From positions 349,356 through 413,355 of the forward strand of contig JAJVIP010000002.1 of assembly GCA_022072025.1 (NCBI GenBank): a stretch of 64,000 bases of DNA. Direction: 5' to 3'. This stretch comes from Elusimicrobiota bacterium (GTDB taxonomy: Bacteria; Elusimicrobiota; Elusimicrobia; F11). The notes beneath the pieces were generated by a model. The model made no database searches. It saw nothing but the letters and a program-made list of their open reading frames with translations, and had not been told where the DNA came from. Position numbers and translations under genes: made by a program. Shown in pieces: positions 1 to 48,798 of the stretch. Positions within the stretch are counted from its first letter, which is position 1. Each line of letters starts with the position of its first letter.

Positions 1-417
1 TTGACGGCGCCTGATGGAGAAAAACTTGATCTGAAACCAATTTCAGAAACCAGCGGCGTGTTCGTCACCGAATTTAAACCTGAAGTGTTGGGCATTCACA
101 GAGCGCAAGTGTGGGTGAAAAGAGCCGGAAAGCGGTTTGGAGGGGATTCTTTAAACGTGAGAGTCATTGAAAACCTCCAAGAAGAAGACGATTTGAGTTC
201 CCATTTTGATTTGATGAGGGACATGGCCCGAGTAACTGGAGGAAAATTTGTCACCTTGGATGAATTTACCCCCGAACTTTTCACTGAATTCAATCAACAA
301 TCCTCACTGTCCCAAGGGCGTAAGATTCTCTTGTGGAATTCACCCTGGTTTTTGGCGATTCTCTTGGGGTGGCTGATCCTGGAATGGATGATCCGCAAAA
401 AACAGGGGCTGCCATGA
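1..417 (+). CDS. C-terminal part of a membrane protein of the VWA/glutamine-amidotransferase-like type (5' end outside window)
   Basis: Only the last ~138 residues are present; the frame is open at the left edge, so the real start lies upstream. The visible part has a beta-rich stretch (about residues 1-55), a segment with MARVTGGKFVTLDE, and one transmembrane helix at about 116-131, followed by the cytoplasmic tail RKKQGLP. The order 'ATGG + LWNSPWFLAILLG + basic tail' resembles the C-terminus of membrane proteins carrying a VWA or class I GATase-like domain. Such proteins often sit with MoxR, DUF58 and DUF4175-like genes, and a DUF4175-like gene occurs here at 6348. The TGA stop overlaps the ATG of the next gene (ATGA). 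The family call is by resemblance only, because the diagnostic domains are outside the window. Confidence 0.55.
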   Translation: MTAPDGEKLDLKPISETSGVFVTEFKPEVLGIHRAQVWVKRAGKRFGGDSLNVRVIENLQEEDDLSSHFDLMRDMARVTGGKFVTLDEFTPELFTEFNQQSSLSQGRKILLWNSPWFLAILLGWLILEWMIRKKQGLP

Positions 418-2582
418 GCAGGCGAATCATGGGCCTTTTCCTTTTTTTGGGACTTTTTTCAGCGTACGTTCATATGGCGGCTCCGAGCGTAACAACAGGG
501 GATTCCGGTGAGTTCATTACGGCCGCGGCCACACTCTCCTTGCCTCACGCCCCTTCCTTTCCTCTTTACATGTTGTCTGCCAAAGCGTTTATGACGGCCC
601 TGCCTTGGGGCTCTTTTCCTTACCGATGCAATGTGTTCTCCGCTTTAACCGCCGCATTGTCAGGCGTGTTGATATTTTTATTGTTGGTTTCAATGGGAGG
701 CGGAACATGGGGTTCCCTTCTCACCACGGTTCTGGTGGCGGTGAGCATGTCCTATTGGGAAAACAGTTTGGTGGCGGAGGTATTTTCGCTCAACACCCTC
801 ATAATGATAATGCTCTTGTGTTGCCTGGCCAAACAAGCGTATGCCTTATTTTTCTTCCTGTTGGGATTGGGACTTGGCAATCATCAAATTCTCCTTTTTG
901 TCGCGCCGGTATTTTTGGTTTCTTTATTCCCAAATATCCAAGATTGCTCAGGACCCTATGGAGAATCGTCATCCCGGCACGCTTTTTGGCCGGGATCCAG
1001 GTTTTCATTGAGGGAGAACCTGGGCCCCGGCCAAAAGATTGCCGGGGCGACGACCTGGAAAGTTACAAATAGCCAAGGGCCATTGTCTTTTCATTATCTC
1101 CGCACGGTGGGTTTGTGGGTGTTTTTATTTCTGTTGGGGCTTTCAATCTATTTAACGTTGCCCATTCGGTCCTCCAGTGAACCTCCCCTCAATTGGGGGC
1201 AACCCACCACCATTGAAAAATTGTCTCGGACTTTCTTACGGAAAGACTATGGATCATTAAAATTGGCTTTGGGAGATACTCCCGATCGAAACATGTCCAA
1301 TACTGCGCGGCACTTAAAAAATTTCTATGGCCGCCTCTGTGACGAAATTCCATGGCCGGTTTTGTGGATGGCGTTTGGGTCCCTCATTTTCGCAATGATA
1401 AAAATGAATCGATGGGCCTGGACGCTTTTCATTTTGTTTCTCTTCACGGGTCCCTTCTTTTATCTTTTGGGAAATCTGCCCTTTAACGCCCAATCCGACG
1501 GAATTATTGGACGCTTTATGATTGGACCGACATTGGCGCTTCTGCTGTCATTGCCGGTTCCTTTTCAGAAGCGCTCACGCAGCGGCGTGGCCCTGCTCGC
1601 CATTTTTCTTTTGCTGACATTGAAAAGCAACTTCCTGGAGGCCAAGGCTTTTCGGTCGAGTACGCTTGTGTTGGATTATGGTCGCGCAATGTTGAGAACT
1701 CTTCCTGAGGGATCAACGCTTTTTCTTGATGGCGGAGATGACGCGTTTTACAGCCTGGCCATGCTTCGATATGTGATGAACAAACGAGCTGATGTTTCGA
1801 TCCACGACCGGGGAGGGCTTATCTTTAAAAATCCTTACGGACCTGATTTCAGATCGCTCACCAAAGAACAGAAGCAGGAGAGGCGCCGGAGGGTTGAAAC
1901 ATCCGCCTTGTCACGAGGGGCTGTTTATTATTCCACCATGGACCGCGATGTCCTGCCTGGTTATCGTCTCGTCCAAGACGGAATCTTGATGAAGGTGGAC
2001 CGCTTTGCAGTGGCCAAGGGGTTGTCGAAGACGGCGATTTTGCGGTCGCTGTATCCTCTGACTCCCGCCATTTACCGAATGCGCGCGTTGGGTCCTTTTT
2101 TTCCTTTCATGGAGGGCCGCTATTATCTCTCCCAAGGGAATTGGGCCGAGGCTTTGCGATATTTTAGACGGGCGGGTCAAATGGGGAGGGATGTGGATTG
2201 GTTGAAAAATAATTTAGGGATGGACTACGCGCAATCGGCCTATCAAAAGCTCATGTCTCAAGAACTCGCTTTATCAGAGACAATCTATCTACAGTGGATT
2301 GCTTTTGACCCCATGAACCTGCAAGCCCACAGCAATTTGGGAGTGGTTTATGAAAGGTCCAACCGCCTTCAAGATGCCGTGATGCAATATGAGAAAACGG
2401 CGCGACTTTTTCCCGATGCGGTGGACCCGGTTTTTAATTTGGCGGTGTTGGCTTGGAAAAAAGGAGATTGGCCTTCGGTTGTGAATTATTTGGAAGAGGT
2501 CATTAAAAGAAAACCCGACCATCTGCAAGCCCAGGGTTATTTGAAGGTGGCGCGAGAAAAATTAAAAGCGAGCATGAAATGA
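414..2582 (+). CDS. DUF2723 membrane glycosyltransferase-like protein with C-terminal TPRs
   Basis: A 722-residue polytopic inner-membrane protein. The DUF2723 (TMEM260-like) signature is near the N-terminus: TGDSGEF at about 28-34 and HAPSFPLY at about 45-52. Around ten hydrophobic helices follow, then a soluble C-terminal region with TPR-like repeats from about residue 565. Family members are thought to transfer sugar from a lipid carrier to extracytoplasmic protein acceptors, so a GT-C role is inferred. The ATG at 414 was chosen because it overlaps the previous stop (ATGA) and opens a normal signal-anchor (MSRRIMGLFLFLG); the upstream in-frame ATG at 333 lies inside the previous gene. Residues ~184-213 are encoded by an in-frame palindromic repeat (966-1053) that is absent from the usual family pattern. 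The gene is translationally coupled to the next DUF2723 gene. Confidence 0.85.
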   Translation: MSRRIMGLFLFLGLFSAYVHMAAPSVTTGDSGEFITAAATLSLPHAPSFPLYMLSAKAFMTALPWGSFPYRCNVFSALTAALSGVLIFLLLVSMGGGTWGSLLTTVLVAVSMSYWENSLVAEVFSLNTLIMIMLLCCLAKQAYALFFFLLGLGLGNHQILLFVAPVFLVSLFPNIQDCSGPYGESSSRHAFWPGSRFSLRENLGPGQKIAGATTWKVTNSQGPLSFHYLRTVGLWVFLFLLGLSIYLTLPIRSSSEPPLNWGQPTTIEKLSRTFLRKDYGSLKLALGDTPDRNMSNTARHLKNFYGRLCDEIPWPVLWMAFGSLIFAMIKMNRWAWTLFILFLFTGPFFYLLGNLPFNAQSDGIIGRFMIGPTLALLLSLPVPFQKRSRSGVALLAIFLLLTLKSNFLEAKAFRSSTLVLDYGRAMLRTLPEGSTLFLDGGDDAFYSLAMLRYVMNKRADVSIHDRGGLIFKNPYGPDFRSLTKEQKQERRRRVETSALSRGAVYYSTMDRDVLPGYRLVQDGILMKVDRFAVAKGLSKTAILRSLYPLTPAIYRMRALGPFFPFMEGRYYLSQGNWAEALRYFRRAGQMGRDVDWLKNNLGMDYAQSAYQKLMSQELALSETIYLQWIAFDPMNLQAHSNLGVVYERSNRLQDAVMQYEKTARLFPDAVDPVFNLAVLAWKKGDWPSVVNYLEEVIKRKPDHLQAQGYLKVAREKLKASMK
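966..1053. repeat. Palindromic repeat element (copy 1) inserted in frame in a DUF2723 gene
   Basis: About 88 bp made of nested inverted repeats. The outer ends are TCGTC and GACGA. A left hairpin has stem CCCGGC/GCCGGG, a central hairpin pairs CCAGGTTTTC with GAGAACCTGG, and a right hairpin pairs CCCCGGC with GCCGGGG. Related copies lie at 46207-46260 and 48585-48766. Here it is read through in frame and encodes a loop containing ENLGPGQKIAG between two transmembrane helices. Boundaries are approximate because no target-site duplication was identified. Confidence 0.8.
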
Positions 2583-4690
2583 GTGGGATTTTATTTTTTT
2601 CATTTTTTGTTCTTTATCTCTCCACTGTGGCCCCTCATTTGGCTCCCTATCGTGACGCGGGAGAGATGGCGGCGCTCCTGGGAACGTTGGGGGTGGCGCA
2701 TCCCCCCGGTTACCCGCTCTACACGCTGTTGGGAAGTTTGATCACATGGCTACCGGTTGGCAATCTGGTGTATCGGGTGAATGTATTTTCGGCCTTGTGC
2801 GCGGCGGGAGCCTTGGTGTTTTTATTTCATGCGCTTAGAACGTGGCTCGGCCGTCCCTCCGCCCTTTTGGTCACCTGTTTTTTTGGATTATCGAACCCCT
2901 TCTGGGATTTGGCCACGGTTTCAGAAATGTACACGCTTGGAGTTCTGTGGTTTTGTGCCCTTTTATATGTGACTTTCCGATTAAAAAATCCACTTCTTTT
3001 TTCCTTTCTGATGACGTTGGGTTTGGGTGTTCGAATGGACATGCTTTTGTTGATTCCCCTGTTCCTGGTTTGGTTTTACTTTACGACTCATCAAAAAGAT
3101 TTTCCGCTCATGGGTTTGTTTTTTTCTCTGGGGGCTTCGGTGTTCCTTTACTTGATGGTTCGTTCTCTCAGTGATCCTGTGATTGATTGGGCCAATCCTG
3201 ATCATTTGGCTGCTGTTTTTAATTCTGCGCGGAGAAAAAACTACAGTGGAACATTGGATTTGTTGAGCTTGTCGTATGCCGTCGGAGAAAATTTTTTCAC
3301 GAACCTGAAGATTTATGCCCGGCATATTTTGCAGGTGTTTGGGTGGGCAGGAGCCGCCTTGAGTCTTTACGGATGGGTCGTCGGTTATCGTCGATATAAG
3401 CCGGTTACCATTTTCCTCGCGACTATTTTCCTCGTTACGGGTCCGGTGTTTTTATTTTTGGCCAATATGCCGCCCAATCCGCATTCGCTGGCCATTGTGG
3501 AGGCCTCATATTTATTGCCCGATTTAATGATAGCGATCATGGTGGGTTTTGGTTGGCAGGGAATGACGGGCATCCTTCAAAACAAGGGCCGTTCCTTATT
3601 TATGGGAATTGTGATGGTGGGTTCGTTGACCGTGAATGCGGTCACGGGTTATTGGCGCGCCTCCAAACGTCATAATTTCTATGCGCGAGATTTTGTGGAA
3701 AATGTTTTTAGATCTACACCCAGAGGCGCGGTGGCAGTTTTCCATAAGGATGTTCAATTGTTTTCTTTGTGGTCTGCCCAATTGTTGGACCAAAAAAGGT
3801 TGGACGTTTCGGTGGTGGCGACGGGACTTTCGGGAAGTCCGTGGTATTGGGAGATGAAGCGACGATGGAAAGCCGCTTTGTCTCCTGAAATATCTCTTAA
3901 GGACCCTCAAGGATGGCCGCAGCTTCTTCAGGTATTGGAAGAAAGACCTTTGGTGGCGGGATATGATGTGGAACTCGTGGATTATTCCCGGTTGAAAGTC
4001 TCCCCCAATGGGATGCTCATGAGAGTTCAATTGTCTGATTCAACTTTTGGAAAATCACTTTTTGATATCAACAAATGGGGCCATTTGCTGTCTGACTTCT
4101 GTGTGTATAGAGGGGAATATATTTACGGATCCACACCGGATTTTTTCTCAACTGATTTGATCGGCAATGTGGCGCGGGCGCACCATCAACAGGCTTTTTA
4201 TCTCATGAACCAAAATCATTTCGATCTGGCGGAGACGTTTTTCCGCCGCTCGGAAAAATTTGATCCAACTTTTTCACGCGCCACCAGTGATCGAGCCTAT
4301 TTGGCTTTTCGTCGAGGGAATATTCAATTGGCGGCCTTCCTTTATGAAGAAGCCACTCGAAAAGCCCTTCAAACCCTCACTTGGGCCTTTGAATTCAAAA
4401 GTTTGCCGGAGGTGCTGAGAGGATGCCAGATAGAGGCTGCTTCGCTCACCACCCAGTGGGGGGCCATGATGGAGCGGTTGGGGAAAATGGGTGAAGCACG
4501 GCGTTTGTACGTGAGAGCCAATGAAATTTTTGAGTTGGCCCAAGCGCATTACAATTTGGCCGTTTCCTATTGGGAAAAAGATTGGGGTTTGGTGGTTCGT
4601 CACATGCAAAGAGCATTGGAGTTGAACCCTCAGATGCAGGAGGCCAAAAAATTCTTGGCCAGAGCGGAATATATGCAGGGGAAAAAGTGA
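2579..4690 (+). CDS. DUF2723 membrane glycosyltransferase-like protein with C-terminal TPRs (second copy)
   Basis: A 703-residue paralogue-like neighbour of the preceding gene. DUF2723 motifs appear as YRDAGEM (about 24-30) and HPPGYPLY (about 41-48), followed by about ten membrane helices and a C-terminal TPR region from about residue 534 (HQQAFYLMNQNHFDLAETFF and later helices). It probably acts as a GT-C fold enzyme on the outer face of the inner membrane; the acceptor is unknown. The ATG overlaps the previous stop by 4 bases (ATGA), indicating coupled translation. Unlike its neighbour it carries no repeat insertion between the corresponding helices. Two adjacent but divergent DUF2723 genes suggest an old duplication or two acceptor specificities. 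Confidence 0.85.
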   Translation: MSGILFFSFFVLYLSTVAPHLAPYRDAGEMAALLGTLGVAHPPGYPLYTLLGSLITWLPVGNLVYRVNVFSALCAAGALVFLFHALRTWLGRPSALLVTCFFGLSNPFWDLATVSEMYTLGVLWFCALLYVTFRLKNPLLFSFLMTLGLGVRMDMLLLIPLFLVWFYFTTHQKDFPLMGLFFSLGASVFLYLMVRSLSDPVIDWANPDHLAAVFNSARRKNYSGTLDLLSLSYAVGENFFTNLKIYARHILQVFGWAGAALSLYGWVVGYRRYKPVTIFLATIFLVTGPVFLFLANMPPNPHSLAIVEASYLLPDLMIAIMVGFGWQGMTGILQNKGRSLFMGIVMVGSLTVNAVTGYWRASKRHNFYARDFVENVFRSTPRGAVAVFHKDVQLFSLWSAQLLDQKRLDVSVVATGLSGSPWYWEMKRRWKAALSPEISLKDPQGWPQLLQVLEERPLVAGYDVELVDYSRLKVSPNGMLMRVQLSDSTFGKSLFDINKWGHLLSDFCVYRGEYIYGSTPDFFSTDLIGNVARAHHQQAFYLMNQNHFDLAETFFRRSEKFDPTFSRATSDRAYLAFRRGNIQLAAFLYEEATRKALQTLTWAFEFKSLPEVLRGCQIEAASLTTQWGAMMERLGKMGEARRLYVRANEIFELAQAHYNLAVSYWEKDWGLVVRHMQRALELNPQMQEAKKFLARAEYMQGKK

Positions 4691-9599: not shown

Positions 9600-11073
9600 T
9601 AGTTGGGTTGGCCGAAAAGGGGGCCTGATGGTGGGAGCGGTGTTCTTCTTTTCCTCGACAACTTTTTCATTTCAAACAGATCTTCCGTCTTCTGTTCAGG
9701 GGCTTGATGACTATCAGTTGGTTGAAGCGGGGTTGGCCACCTCCAAAAATGTTTCACCTGCGTTGTATTTTTTATCGGAACGGGAATATGCGCGGGCGCT
9801 TGAAGAGGAATTGATTAGGTCAAAGGGTGCGGGGTGGCTGTATGAGTATTTGAAGGGTTTGTGTGAAGTCTCCAAGAACCTGGTCCGTTTTGAATCCGAA
9901 CATTTCATTTTGTGGCTTCCACCAAATCAAACCTTTCTTAAAGAATATTTAATTCCTTCTTTGGAGAAATCGGCCGCCGCGGTTGAAAAATCATTGGGAT
10001 TTCGATCCCCAAAAAAAATCACAGTGGAAGTTTACCCCACCAAAGAAGACTTCTCAGTGGCTTCCACGTTATCCTTGGAAACTCTGGAGCGTTCTGGAGC
10101 TATTGGAATCTGTAAATTTCATCGTTTGATGGTGATGTCGCCTCAATCATTGCCTTTGGGGTATCGTTGGTTGGACGCGCTTTCCCATGAATATTTACAT
10201 TTGGCGATCAATGAATTGAGCCATTCAAAAGCTGAGTTGTGGTTGCATGAAGGAACGGCCCGTTATTTTGAAACGGGGTATCGGTTGGATCCTCCGGTCT
10301 TTTTGACGCCGGACCAAAAAACAAAATTAATGGAGGCGCTGGAGGGGGACACCTTGGTCAAATTCGCTCGCATGTCGCCTTCCATGGTGTATCTGAAGGA
10401 TCAAGAGGAAGTTTCTTTGGCCTTCGCTCAAGTGTCGCATGCGGTGAGTTTGTTGGTAGGGAAAAAAGGGGTGCGGGCTTTCTCTAAATTTTTAATGGCA
10501 CTACGAAATCGGCCTTTTGAAACTGCTTTTCAAACACATTACAGCATGGATACCACCCAATTTGAGAAACAATGGCAAGAACGGCTGGCTCAGGAGAAAT
10601 GGGAGAAGTCAAAAGGAACCATGGCGGACGAGGTGATTTTTAAACCAACCGCGGAGGATGATTTCATCGGAGCCGAATCTCAAGCTCAGGTTCGTTTGGG
10701 GGACCGGATGCGTCGTCAAGGGTTGAATGAAGCCGCCTTGATTCAATACGAAAAGGCCCTGGAGGTGGAGCCAGACAACGCGGTGATTCTGCTTAAAGCT
10801 GCGAAGATGGACATCGCGTTGGGTCAAACCAGCTCTGCCATTCATCGGTTGTCGCGGGCCATTCAAAAAAATCCAAATTACGTCACGCCTTACATTGAAT
10901 TGGGAGGACTCCTGGAACCCGCTCAGGCCTTGCCTCATTTGCAGGAGGCCATCGCCATCAATCCTTTCGATCCGAGACCGCACCGGATGTTGGAGGGGAT
11001 TTATCAATCCCTCGGTCAAACCAATTCCGCTCTGTTTGAGCGCGAGGTTTATTTAAAACTCAGTCAACCGTAA
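9580..11073 (+). CDS. Exported gluzincin (peptidase MA-like) with C-terminal TPRs
   Basis: A 497-residue protein with an N-terminal signal-type segment (GRKGGLMVGAVFFFSSTTFSF) suggesting export. The zinc-metallopeptidase motif HEYLH is at about 203-207 and a downstream LHEGTARYFE supplies the third ligand/glutamate region (about 223-229). This matches the peptidase MA-like/gluzincin pattern. TPR-like repeats occupy about 365-497. The start is uncertain: ATG 9580 overlaps the previous gene by 20 bases and keeps a basic N-region, while ATG 9628 has a better ribosome-binding sequence (AAGGGGG) but loses that region. It ends 4 bases before the stop of the convergent coiled-coil gene, with no obvious terminator between them. 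The substrate is unknown. Confidence 0.75.
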   Translation: MTASRINSWVGRKGGLMVGAVFFFSSTTFSFQTDLPSSVQGLDDYQLVEAGLATSKNVSPALYFLSEREYARALEEELIRSKGAGWLYEYLKGLCEVSKNLVRFESEHFILWLPPNQTFLKEYLIPSLEKSAAAVEKSLGFRSPKKITVEVYPTKEDFSVASTLSLETLERSGAIGICKFHRLMVMSPQSLPLGYRWLDALSHEYLHLAINELSHSKAELWLHEGTARYFETGYRLDPPVFLTPDQKTKLMEALEGDTLVKFARMSPSMVYLKDQEEVSLAFAQVSHAVSLLVGKKGVRAFSKFLMALRNRPFETAFQTHYSMDTTQFEKQWQERLAQEKWEKSKGTMADEVIFKPTAEDDFIGAESQAQVRLGDRMRRQGLNEAALIQYEKALEVEPDNAVILLKAAKMDIALGQTSSAIHRLSRAIQKNPNYVTPYIELGGLLEPAQALPHLQEAIAINPFDPRPHRMLEGIYQSLGQTNSALFEREVYLKLSQP

Positions 11074-11077
11074 ATCT

Positions 11078-14000
11078 TTACGCGGCTTTTCTGAATTTTT
11101 GGGATATGTTTTCGAGTTCAGTCCGTAATTCATGTTTTTCATTTTGAACTCGCCGCAGTTGTTCGTCCATGATGCTTTGTTGCCTCATGAATTCCGCGGT
11201 GATCACCTCAACTCGTTTGGTGAGATCATGTCTAGCATCCTCGAGTTCTTTGTTTCGGACTTGAGATTCAGCGACCAAGCGATCGTATTCGGTCTTTTGA
11301 TTTTCAAGTTGGAGTTGCTTGTTGTGAAGATCAGACATTGTTTTCTCCACTTGAACCGTCATCTCGTGTTGTTTTTGGAGATATTTTCTTTGGAGCTCCT
11401 CTTCTTTTTGCGCGAATGACGCCTGAACTTCATTCATCCGGGCCATCAGTTTCATGCGCATCTCCGTGGCTTCCTCCAGCCATTGTTGGCGGGAAGTTGC
11501 AAATTCCGCTTCTTTTTCAGCCATTTGCTTTCTCGCTTTCTCAGCGATTTCGTTGACGCGCGTCTCAAACCGAGAAGGCCATTCAATCTCAACATTCTTT
11601 TTATATTCCTCAAATTCTTTTTCCCGTTGATTTAGCGCCGCCATGAGGGCCTCTTCTTTTTTTCGATAGGAATCTCGGAGCATATCCGACTCTTCTTGGG
11701 CTCTTAATTTGGTTGACTCCAGGGTGTGAAGGGTCTCTTCATGTTCCTTGGCCCAACGCGCTTTTTGGGCTTCGACTTGCTGCATACGCGCCACATTTTC
11801 TTTTTCAAGCCGATCCAGATCGCTTCGGTATCGTTTCTCAAGGTTGTCGAGCGCCATTTGTTTTTCAGCGGCGATTTTCTGGCGGGCATTTTCTTCTTCT
11901 TCCATCTTCTTTTGCAAGCGAGCATTTCTTTCCTGCCAGAGGCTCTCTTGTTCAGCCGCTCGATTGCGAAGGGTCTCTTCCATTTGTTGATACATGGTAC
12001 GGTGTTCGTCCTCAATCTTCTTCTTCATTTCTTCCGAAATTACTTGAAGCCGGTGTTTTTCCTGTTCGAGACTTATCTCAAAGGCTTTCCTTTCTTGACT
12101 CAGTTTTTGGAAGGCTTCTTGTTTTTCCATCGCGATTTGTTGCTGTTTTTCTCTGAGTTCAGCCTCCTTTTCCTGAACTTCTTGAAGCAAGGATTTTTTT
12201 AGTTCTTGAAAAGCCTTTTCTCGTTCAGCCTCTTTTTGTTCTGAAATGGCTTCGAGTTCTTGAGCGCGTTTTTTCCACATGGATTCCAATTCCCCGGCCA
12301 GCGCGCGGTGCGATTGTTCGGCTTTCATTTCCCAATTTTTTTGTTCCATTGAAATTCGCGATCGAAGGTCTTTTTCGAATTTCTCCATCTGTTCTGTATC
12401 TCGAAGCATAGTATCCTCCCAGGCTTTCTTATTCTGCTGAAATTGTTGATGCATTTCTCTCTCCACCGTCGCGAGTCTTTCCTCTTCTTGTCGAGAATGA
12501 AGTTTCAATGCTTCCTCTTTCATTTTAAGGGCCGCCATGTCGGCGTCCATTTGCGCTTTTCTTTTTTCCCATTCGGCATGCTCTCTTTGCAGCAATTGAT
12601 GCTTTTCGTGATAGGCCCGTTCAAGTTCCAATTGCTTGCTTTCCGTCATGCGGGCCAGTTGCTTCCTCTCTTCCTCAGTTATTTGTTCCAGTTCTTCGGT
12701 CCGTTTCTTTAACCTCTCTTCAACTTCGGCGGTTCGTCGACGGAAGGAGTCTTCAAATTGGGCTTCTAAATCTCGCTTTTCATTGACCAGCTTGGCGTGT
12801 AACTCGTTTTCGGCTAAAGCCAAACGATTTTTCTCATCATTGACAAATTTGTTGAATGTTTCTTGTTCCATCTTGAGTTTGTCGCGCAGTTCTTTTTCAA
12901 CCATTTCTATGCGTTGATGATTAAGTTCCTGCTGTTCTTTCATGATTCGGTTTTCGGAGTCGGCCTTGGCCCTGAGCTCTTCTTCCAAGGCTTCTATCCT
13001 TCGTTTTTCAACCTCGGCTTTGTTCTCCAGGATACGTCTTTCATCTTCGAGTTTTTGGATGAGTATGGTTTCTTTCTTTTCCATGTCCTGCCGCAATTGC
13101 TCATGTTCCACATGAAGTCTGTGCCGTTCATGCCCCAAAGATTCAAGGCTGCTGGCTTTGGCCGCTTCCCATTGTTGTTTTTCAAGTAACAACTGAGATT
13201 CTTTTGCTGCATAGGCTTTTTCGAGATTGTTAAATTTATCATCAAACATGCGTTGTCGTTGAGCCAGGTTCTCGTTGTTGAGTTTTTCAAGTTCGGCTTT
13301 CATGGCCATTTCTTTTTCAGCCAAAATCTTTTCTGCTTCCATTAAACGGTCGTTGATGGTGCGGTCTTGTTGGGTCAATTTGAATTTCAAATCATTTTCA
13401 CGATCAATTATTTCTTGTTCTTTTTGTTTCTTAAATTTCTCGAATTGGGCGCGTGATTCTTCAAGCAGCAAACGTTGATTATCCAGGTCAATTTGGGCCC
13501 GTTCTTTTTGATTGTTCCACTCCTGTGTTAATAAAGCGTGACGGTCTTGTTCTTGGGAGATCTTGCTTTCCAGTTCAACTCGACGAACTTGGAATAGTTT
13601 TTCTAAATCATTTTGTTTTTCTCTAAGCAATTCATCCATTCGCGTTTGGAGGCGAATTTGTTCTCTATTTAGCTTGTCACGTGATGTTCGTTCATCATTG
13701 GCCAATTGTTGATATTGAGCGTCTATCTTGGCTTGATGAGCGGTTTTTTCCTCTTCCAGCCGTCGTTGAGATTCGGCCTCCATCATTTCAACTCGTTGGG
13801 ATACTTCTTCGGCCTGTTGCTGAAGAAGAGATTTTTCGTTTTCGACCTTGACCATCAAATCTTTTTCGAGCAATTCCAGTCGATCTTTGTCTTCTCGCAT
13901 CTTTTCCGACCAAATTTTTTGTTCTTGTTCCGCTTTGTCGAGAATTTGTTTCTCCATGTCTTGGAGTTTTTTGTGTTCAGCTTTGAGTTGCGCGTCCCAC

Positions 14001-46069: not shown

Positions 46070-46143
46070 TTTTATTTTTCCTTGAGTTTCAAACTTGTTT
46101 TGAATTCGGGGTTTGGGATTTCGGATTACAAGGTTTTTCCCTC

Positions 46144-46207
46144 TTAAACTCCAAATCACAAGTCTCAAACTCTAAACTCGAAACAAACTTAAAACAGAGC
46201 AGAGACA
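46144..46207. repeat. 64-bp direct repeat, copy 1
   Basis: Begins TTAAACTCCAAATCACAAG and ends GAGCAGAGACA. It is identical to 46309-46372. It is AT-rich and built of short CAAACTC/AAACTCG-like sub-motifs. No target duplication or transposase is visible. Confidence 0.9.
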
Positions 46208-46260
46208 GGTTTTCTTCATGGGGAAAACCTGGGCCCCGGCCAAAAGATTGCCGGGGCGAC
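46207..46260. repeat. Palindromic repeat element (copy 2, left arm missing)
   Basis: A small hairpin (AGGTTTTC/GAAAACCT) is followed by the right half of the same element seen at 966-1053: CCTGGGCCCCGGCC, a short loop, GCCGGGGCGAC. The left CCCGGC hairpin of copy 1 is absent. It lies between the two 64-bp direct repeats, immediately after copy 1. Confidence 0.8.
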
Positions 46261-46308
46261 AGCGTTTTGTGCAGGTCCTTTAGGTACGATTCGACTGAAT
46301 CATTCCAG

Positions 46309-46372
46309 TTAAACTCCAAATCACAAGTCTCAAACTCTAAACTCGAAACAAACTTAAAACAGAGCAGAGACA
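46309..46372. repeat. 64-bp direct repeat, copy 2
   Basis: Identical to 46144-46207. It ends 16 bases before the prmC start, so it forms part of the prmC leader and may influence its translation. Confidence 0.9.
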
Positions 46373-48534: not shown

Positions 48535-48798
48535 ATGATGACATCGCAATTTCATGTTAATTTGCGAAGAAAACAGGTGATCATCGTTGCCCCGGCACGC
48601 TTCTTGGCCGTCCAGCTCAATGATAATTTATTGTTCTGGACAGTACCGGCCAAGATTATTATGGAACGGTACGGGGCCCAGGTGTTGTATTTTTCTCAGA
48701 ATTTATTCCAATACGATTTAAAAAAACAAAACCTGGGCCCCGGCCAAACGACATGCCGGGGCGACGTCCACTTTGGTTGCGGCGGAGTTACGCTATGA
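48535..48798 (+). CDS. Small ORF A preceding hisD, carrying a palindromic element in frame
   Basis: An 87-codon frame from ATGATG to a TGA that overlaps the hisD start (ATGA). The N-terminus MMTSQFHVNLRRK and C-terminus HFGCGGVTL match the ends of small ORF B before hisI (MMNSQFLDFCLRK and LFSCGEFAL). The middle, about codons 17-78, is the long form of a palindromic element. No good ribosome-binding site precedes it, so its own expression is doubtful. The shared ends, the kept reading frame and the identical stop/start overlap make it more than a chance frame. It may be a decayed or leader-type small gene. Confidence 0.35.
   Translation: MMTSQFHVNLRRKQVIIVAPARFLAVQLNDNLLFWTVPAKIIMERYGAQVLYFSQNLFQYDLKKQNLGPGQTTCRGDVHFGCGGVTL
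48585..48766. repeat. Palindromic repeat element (copy 3, long form)
   Basis: The left arm CGTTGCCCCGGCACGC with TTCTTGGCCG (48585-48614) and the right arm (48732-48766: CCTGGGCCCCGGCC, loop, GCCGGGGCGACG) are inverted relatives of one another. They match the two halves of the element at 966-1053, here separated by ~117 bp of unrelated AT-rich sequence. It lies inside small ORF A without breaking its frame. Confidence 0.75.

Follow-up and report, generated by a model that had tools for sequence, protein, structure and literature searches.

The segment at positions 967–1052, read in frame within a gene for a TMEM260-like membrane protein, very probably belongs to a family of small non-autonomous mobile palindromes spread through the genome, each made of two head-to-head CGTC-type REP hairpins (full cores, 84–87 bp), and would form a tolerated extra loop in its host. 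Members of the family are repeated across the genome, are absent from homologous sites, are inserted in frame elsewhere and consist of base-paired hairpin units; one of the larger elements that enclose them, T1, has TIRs and a target duplication. The window, the whole 64,000-nucleotide stretch that was analysed, corresponds to G000:C2:349356-413355 of a 3.64-Mb draft genome. It contains the following features.

414–2582, plus strand: host gene, a TMEM260-like/DUF2723 membrane O-mannosyltransferase-type protein with C-terminal TPRs (PF11028 and TPR matches; homologues match both sides of the insert).
967–1052, plus strand: 86-bp palindromic core, a head-to-head dimer of two CGTC-tagged REP hairpins (model match of 104 bits; 43-copy alignment; covariation).
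967–999, plus strand: REP unit 1, with CGTC tag, stem ATCCCGGC/GCCGGGAT and CCA tail (columns 5–12 pair with 23–30, 99.7% of cells paired, two pairs changed on both sides).
1021–1052, minus strand: REP unit 2, in the opposite orientation, with CGTC tag, stem GCCCCGGC/GCCGGGGC and CCA tail (columns 60–67 pair with 79–86, 98.5% of cells paired).
46161–46261, no strand assigned: degenerate intergenic copy with the 3' half intact; the AGCGTTTTGTGCAGG..ATTCGACTGAATCATTCC arm of T1, a MITE, comes next (model match of 60 bits; flank sequence).
48585–48642, plus strand: fragment of a further REP unit beside the 48683–48766 copy (weak model match of 15 bits, E 0.1; CGTTGCCCCGGC visible).
48683–48766, no strand assigned: intergenic copy, the altered 5' arm with a GTACCG..CGGTAC module (model match of 47 bits; flank sequence).

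The inverted repeat TCGTC...GACGA spans positions 966–1053 within the open coding sequence 414–2582, and its RNA fold (-63.5 kcal/mol) lies well below the mean of dinucleotide shuffles (-35.5 kcal/mol; z -7.8, reached by 0 of 200). The core (967–1052) encodes SSSRHAFWPGSRFSLRENLGPGQKIAGAT, residues 184–212 in the numbering of window:417-2579, flanked by hydrophobic helices at approximately residues 150–174 and 230–248; the insert contributes 29 residues between two transmembrane helices. The host protein carries PF11028 (formerly DUF2723) plus TPR repeats, and the neighbouring gene (2579–4690) is intact and belongs to the same DUF2723/TMEM260 family (PF11028). These results agree with a preliminary description of the window, which had reported a palindrome in frame in a DUF2723 gene, about 30 residues between two transmembrane helices and a neighbouring DUF2723 protein. 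The homologues from two genomes of the same family (G001 and G002; 51–52% identical) match residues 1–171 and 232–719, not the segment between. The insert is absent from all 10 aligned homologues, which belong to different genera within the class and, at approximately 40–52% identity, are too distant for the exact empty site to be read. The window protein is about 49 residues longer than the aligned homologues; the 86-bp core accounts for 29 of these, and the others may be a linker native to the protein or what is left of a shell that escaped recognition. A MITE shell or target duplication was sought in the flanks of the window copy (967–1052) with no recognisable match. Judging by the open frames, the gene would be transcribed and translated across the insert.

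A 111-bp query around the window copy returned dozens of copies from the source genome, with identities up to 92%. The half-site GGCCGGGRYCCAGGT (at most one mismatch) occurs 73 times forward and 74 times reverse genome-wide (147 in all), as compared with 0 and 2 for the reversed control, and 84 half-site clusters are found in about 0.5 Mb of stretches around the copies. The totals of copies and of intragenic copies derive from these stretches, not from whole-genome annotation, and are lower bounds. Most copies in the stretches analysed are intergenic, which we read as loss of harmful insertions. The region between the two helices varies among homologues in length and sequence, as would be expected if the segment were an ordinary native loop of the protein family, GC-rich and self-complementary by chance. 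We give this explanation next to no credence, as the repeat family already refutes it: the same 86 bp lies at dozens of unrelated places, including within unrelated proteins. The preliminary description had asked whether residues ~184–213 are unique to this strain among DUF2723 homologues, and would have been refuted by close homologues with the segment conserved or by a lack of further copies beyond the window. Neither outcome was observed: the aligned homologues lack the segment, and dozens of copies lie outside the window, several of them embedded in genes.

The two related intergenic copies that had been placed at 46207 and 48585 are real but degenerate. The first (46161–46261) lies between prfA-like and prmC-like genes, the second (48683–48766, with the fragment at 48585–48642) between murA-like and hisD-like genes; all four names come from a reading of the translations. 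AAACTCCAAATCACAAGTCTCAAACTCTAAACTCGAAACAAACTTAAAACAGAGCAGAGAC is found on both flanks of the degenerate copy (window 46100–46350), a direct repeat around the element. Relatives of the same class have the plain CGTC REP form, for example CGTCATTCCGGCGAAAGCCGGAATCCAG...CCTGGACCCCGGCTTTCGCCGGGGTGACG in G001. Canonical CGTC REP head-to-head dimers (71–85 bp) are seen at L178–L193 (G001, G002, G007, G047), and most of those sampled look intergenic. An exact palindrome scan of the contigs of the other genomes in the collection matched only two unrelated genomes.

The core alignment comprises 43 distinct full head-to-head cores, gathered by a pattern that favours CGTC/TGTC tags. CGTC/TGTC (columns 1–4) and GACG/GACA (columns 87–90) are present in 43 of 43 cores, a count that the collecting pattern favours. 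The 8-bp stems are paired in 99% of cells, with the first two pairs covarying as AT/AT, GC/GC and GT/AC, and the CCA tail after the stem is nearly invariant. Positions 5–6 share 1.13 bits of mutual information with 29–30, and positions 60–61 share 0.80 bits with 85–86; cross-half combinations share only 0.27–0.44 bits. Counted as two local hairpins, 99.1% of cells are paired and 36 are compensatory on both sides, a number reached by none of 500 shuffles, and the signal is gone when the pairing is slid. The two local hairpins are therefore the conserved units; in each, a CGTC tag lies on the outside, the stem is 8 bp long and the tail is CCA. A long nested hairpin was rejected as the conserved structure, having two compensatory cells in the 43 cores, fewer than its shuffles. 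The nested hairpins of the preliminary description stand as one possible fold, but covariation backs two separate hairpins side by side. An Rfam search with the element gave sub-threshold matches only, mostly to microRNA, which we read as chance hits to a hairpin.

The CGTC REP super-family is characterised by a CGTC/TGTC tag, a stem of 8–9 bp with complementary first two positions, a CCA tail and a predominance of head-to-head dimers (PMC3733652). The element shares the outer CGTC tag, an 8-bp stem with covarying AT or GC in the first two positions, the CCA tail and the head-to-head dimers; it is likewise mostly intergenic, with some copies intragenic in frame, and textbook forms such as CGTCATTCCGGCGAAAGCCGGAATCCAG are found in same-class genomes. 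It is unlike typical members in its loop (approximately 9–10 nt in the REP units of the window genome, 4 nt in the same-family genome G001, typically 4–5 nt in the super-family), in its first stem pairs, which are often GC instead of AT, and in the many copies carried within TIR-bearing MITEs. We file the element as a long-loop variant of the super-family, loop length being the one typical feature that it lacks. Loop length is not taken as defining because families with other loops are also listed (Di Nocera et al. 2013, PMC3733652). The hairpins are strong and their stem variation is G-U-compatible, which would also suit RNA or DNA control elements of the host genes (attenuation, an RNase site, gyrase or IHF-like binding) in place of neutral inserts. 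Hairpins in translated regions are unwound by ribosomes, which speaks against such a role for the intragenic copies. REPs of other species have been proposed to influence transcripts (PMC3733652); for the copies inside genes here, we regard control elements as rather unlikely.

At least seven copies are in frame within genes whose sequence to either side of the copy matches homologues: the coenzyme A enzyme CoaB, uracil-DNA glycosylase, four ChaN-like paralogues and the TMEM260-like gene. In CoaB (L069:2518), the insert, of roughly 65 codons, splits the DFP domain, with the domain halves intact on either side. It is missing in 11 of 11 relatives, and the relative 5int from the PDB can be aligned before and after the insert with nothing between. 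The genome has one CoaB-type match only, with no second seen. In uracil-DNA glycosylase (L069:3109), the insert sits in a variable linker ahead of the domain; the homologue at L124 (G003) has a long linker of its own at this place. Six putative ChaN-like paralogues (a name given from sequence to large paralogous proteins) account for seven copies, which lie within the frames or at their ends. For the copies at L082:2566, L085, L153 and L158, two-sided homology shows the empty site in other paralogues, and L153 and L082 are hit at a nearly identical linker position by copies that differ in flanks and orientation. Further intragenic cases at L061:15485, L081, L082:3056 and L101 are probable. The DUF2063-like carrier has no relatives among 20 genomes, and hence no empty site can be demonstrated for it. 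The intragenic count leaves out two read-through ORFs, at L071 (RND plus TPR) and L093:590 (ChaN-like plus adenylate kinase). In these, the copy (L071:12351 and L093:590) lies between two genes, and an open frame joins the RND transporter to the TPR protein and the ChaN-like protein to adenylate kinase, a possible route to gene fusion. The two-copy ORF at L082 (G000:C33) also holds CHPERSEGSLG...RRTRDD, which is absent from paralogues and looks like a different in-frame palindromic repeat. The 1002-aa ChaN-like ORF at L085 (G000:C2:10300-20700) has an inserted segment, HKSQTLNSKQTENSKSETPNP, that resembles intergenic 'tctcaaactctaaactc' repeats. Open frames of 7967 and 4473 aa in G000:C20 and G000:C33 contain element copies, and the 7967-aa frame may truly start after the copy.

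Across these genes, at least four reading frames of the element are in use. No common peptide is therefore conserved, which speaks against selection for one peptide. The insert nevertheless recurs in seven or more conserved proteins. Four of these are ChaN-like paralogues, and in two of the four, different copies have struck almost the same linker. This recurrence could be taken as a sign that the insert was selected for a protein-level function and kept because it offers a helpful loop or a novel stretch for binding. This is highly unlikely, as frames and orientations differ among genes, the sequence tracks hairpin pairing and the insert positions are variable linkers, tolerant of anything. 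The host genes might instead be pseudogenes whose insertions are open only by chance. We give this very little credence: the host frames stay open for hundreds of codons across copies, and CoaB, an essential-pathway gene of which a single copy was found, has intact domain halves to either side of its insert. Cores are stop-free in 78–91% of copies for five of the six frames, as compared with 47% of random genomic 88-mers.

Many cores are enclosed by larger inverted repeats of several kinds, of which T1 is the commonest. The T1 TIRs are AACCSGAATRATTCAGTTGAA (21 bp), found at 65 sites (0 for the reversed pattern) and forming 24 TIR pairs. A 4-bp target duplication at the T1 ends is exact in 15 of 24, as against 3.4 expected for shuffled partners (0 of 5000); the duplications are A/T-rich, for example TTAA, TTAT and ATAA. 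Net insertion lengths in the 24 copies are 168 (eight copies), 195 (six), 231 (five) and 180, 258, 264, 194 and 215 (one each), a multiple of three in 22 of 24, and 195 and 231 equal 168 plus modules of 27 and 63. This pattern is suggestive only, because about three of the lengths are independent and chance would give it about 1 time in 27; the other shells, as measured, do not share it. It is possible, if doubtful, that T1 is shaped for compatibility with translation: the 168 base and the 27 and 63 modules are multiples of three once the 4-bp duplication is counted, five of the six frames of the core are free of stops, and insertion into a gene would usually add a loop instead of a break.

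A search for an autonomous partner element found none, and no T1 inverted-repeat pair at gene-length distance was seen among the 65 sites. The genome has three Y1 transposase genes (PF01797, RAYT-type tyrosine), and in the stretches around them no full CGTC core adjoins. These stretches hold a single degenerate half-site pair, at L164, about 1.2 kb from a Y1-type (RAYT-like) transposase domain (10439–10765 and 12006–12281), so RAYT as the source of the elements is unsupported. For CGTC REPs, no transposase was known (PMC3733652).

Intragenic CGTC and GTAG REPs are known in several species, and RPE-4 and RPE-6 of R. conorii are themselves CGTC-tagged REPs (PMC3733652). The parallel with Rickettsia palindromic elements drawn in the preliminary description thus holds more closely than supposed there, but such palindromes are not confined to Rickettsia (PMC3733652). 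By description, the element resembles RPE-4, RPE-6 and RPE-1 as a palindrome of similar size in frame in conserved protein genes; it differs in lineage and in that its REP pairs often lie within a composite MITE, for which a target duplication of 4 bp is defined. By analogy, it would work like RPEs and other intragenic REPs, and the comparison with Rickettsia is right in kind. A passage in PMC2229807, citing Abergel et al. 2006, describes the RPE-bearing guanylate kinase of Rickettsia as translated and active. The MITEs with ORFs ERIC/RU-1, YPAL/RU-2 and Correia, again likened by description, share TIRs, target duplication, a size of 100–260 bp and in-frame gene fusions (PMC2229807), and the 168-bp Yersinia element likewise yields 56 codons (PMC2229807). 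Unlike these, the composite element encloses a CGTC REP dimer and has modules, 27 and 63 bp long, that can be stacked. A REP dimer central in an outer inverted repeat is also a feature of A. variabilis GTAG-15 and H. neapolitanus CGTC-1 (PMC3733652); here, unlike in those, several different outer inverted repeats share one dimer, and one of them (T1) has target duplications. Intragenic REPs or palindromes in Rickettsia and several other species are already known (PMC3733652), and what is new here is the lineage, the variant with a long loop, the composite MITE and its frame-preserving lengths.

We suggest that a transposase acting in trans would spread the elements and that selection would remove most insertions into genes. 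The survivors would lie in loops and linkers, where stop-poor sequence, often a multiple of three in length, would be translated as a tolerated loop. For the window gene, this would mean a loop of about 29 residues between two transmembrane helices, without a specific function of its own.

The family documents well, beyond Rickettsia, how a mobile palindrome has given rise to protein sequence again and again in one genome, with clean empty sites available in paralogues and relatives. As an essential-pathway enzyme found in a single copy and paralogues hit at different points both carry it, the tolerance of proteins for inserts can be put to a direct test. Lengths that preserve the frame also lead one to ask if small mobile elements become adapted to coding sequence; if T1 were indeed so shaped, a mobile element adapted to entering coding sequence would represent a new strategy.
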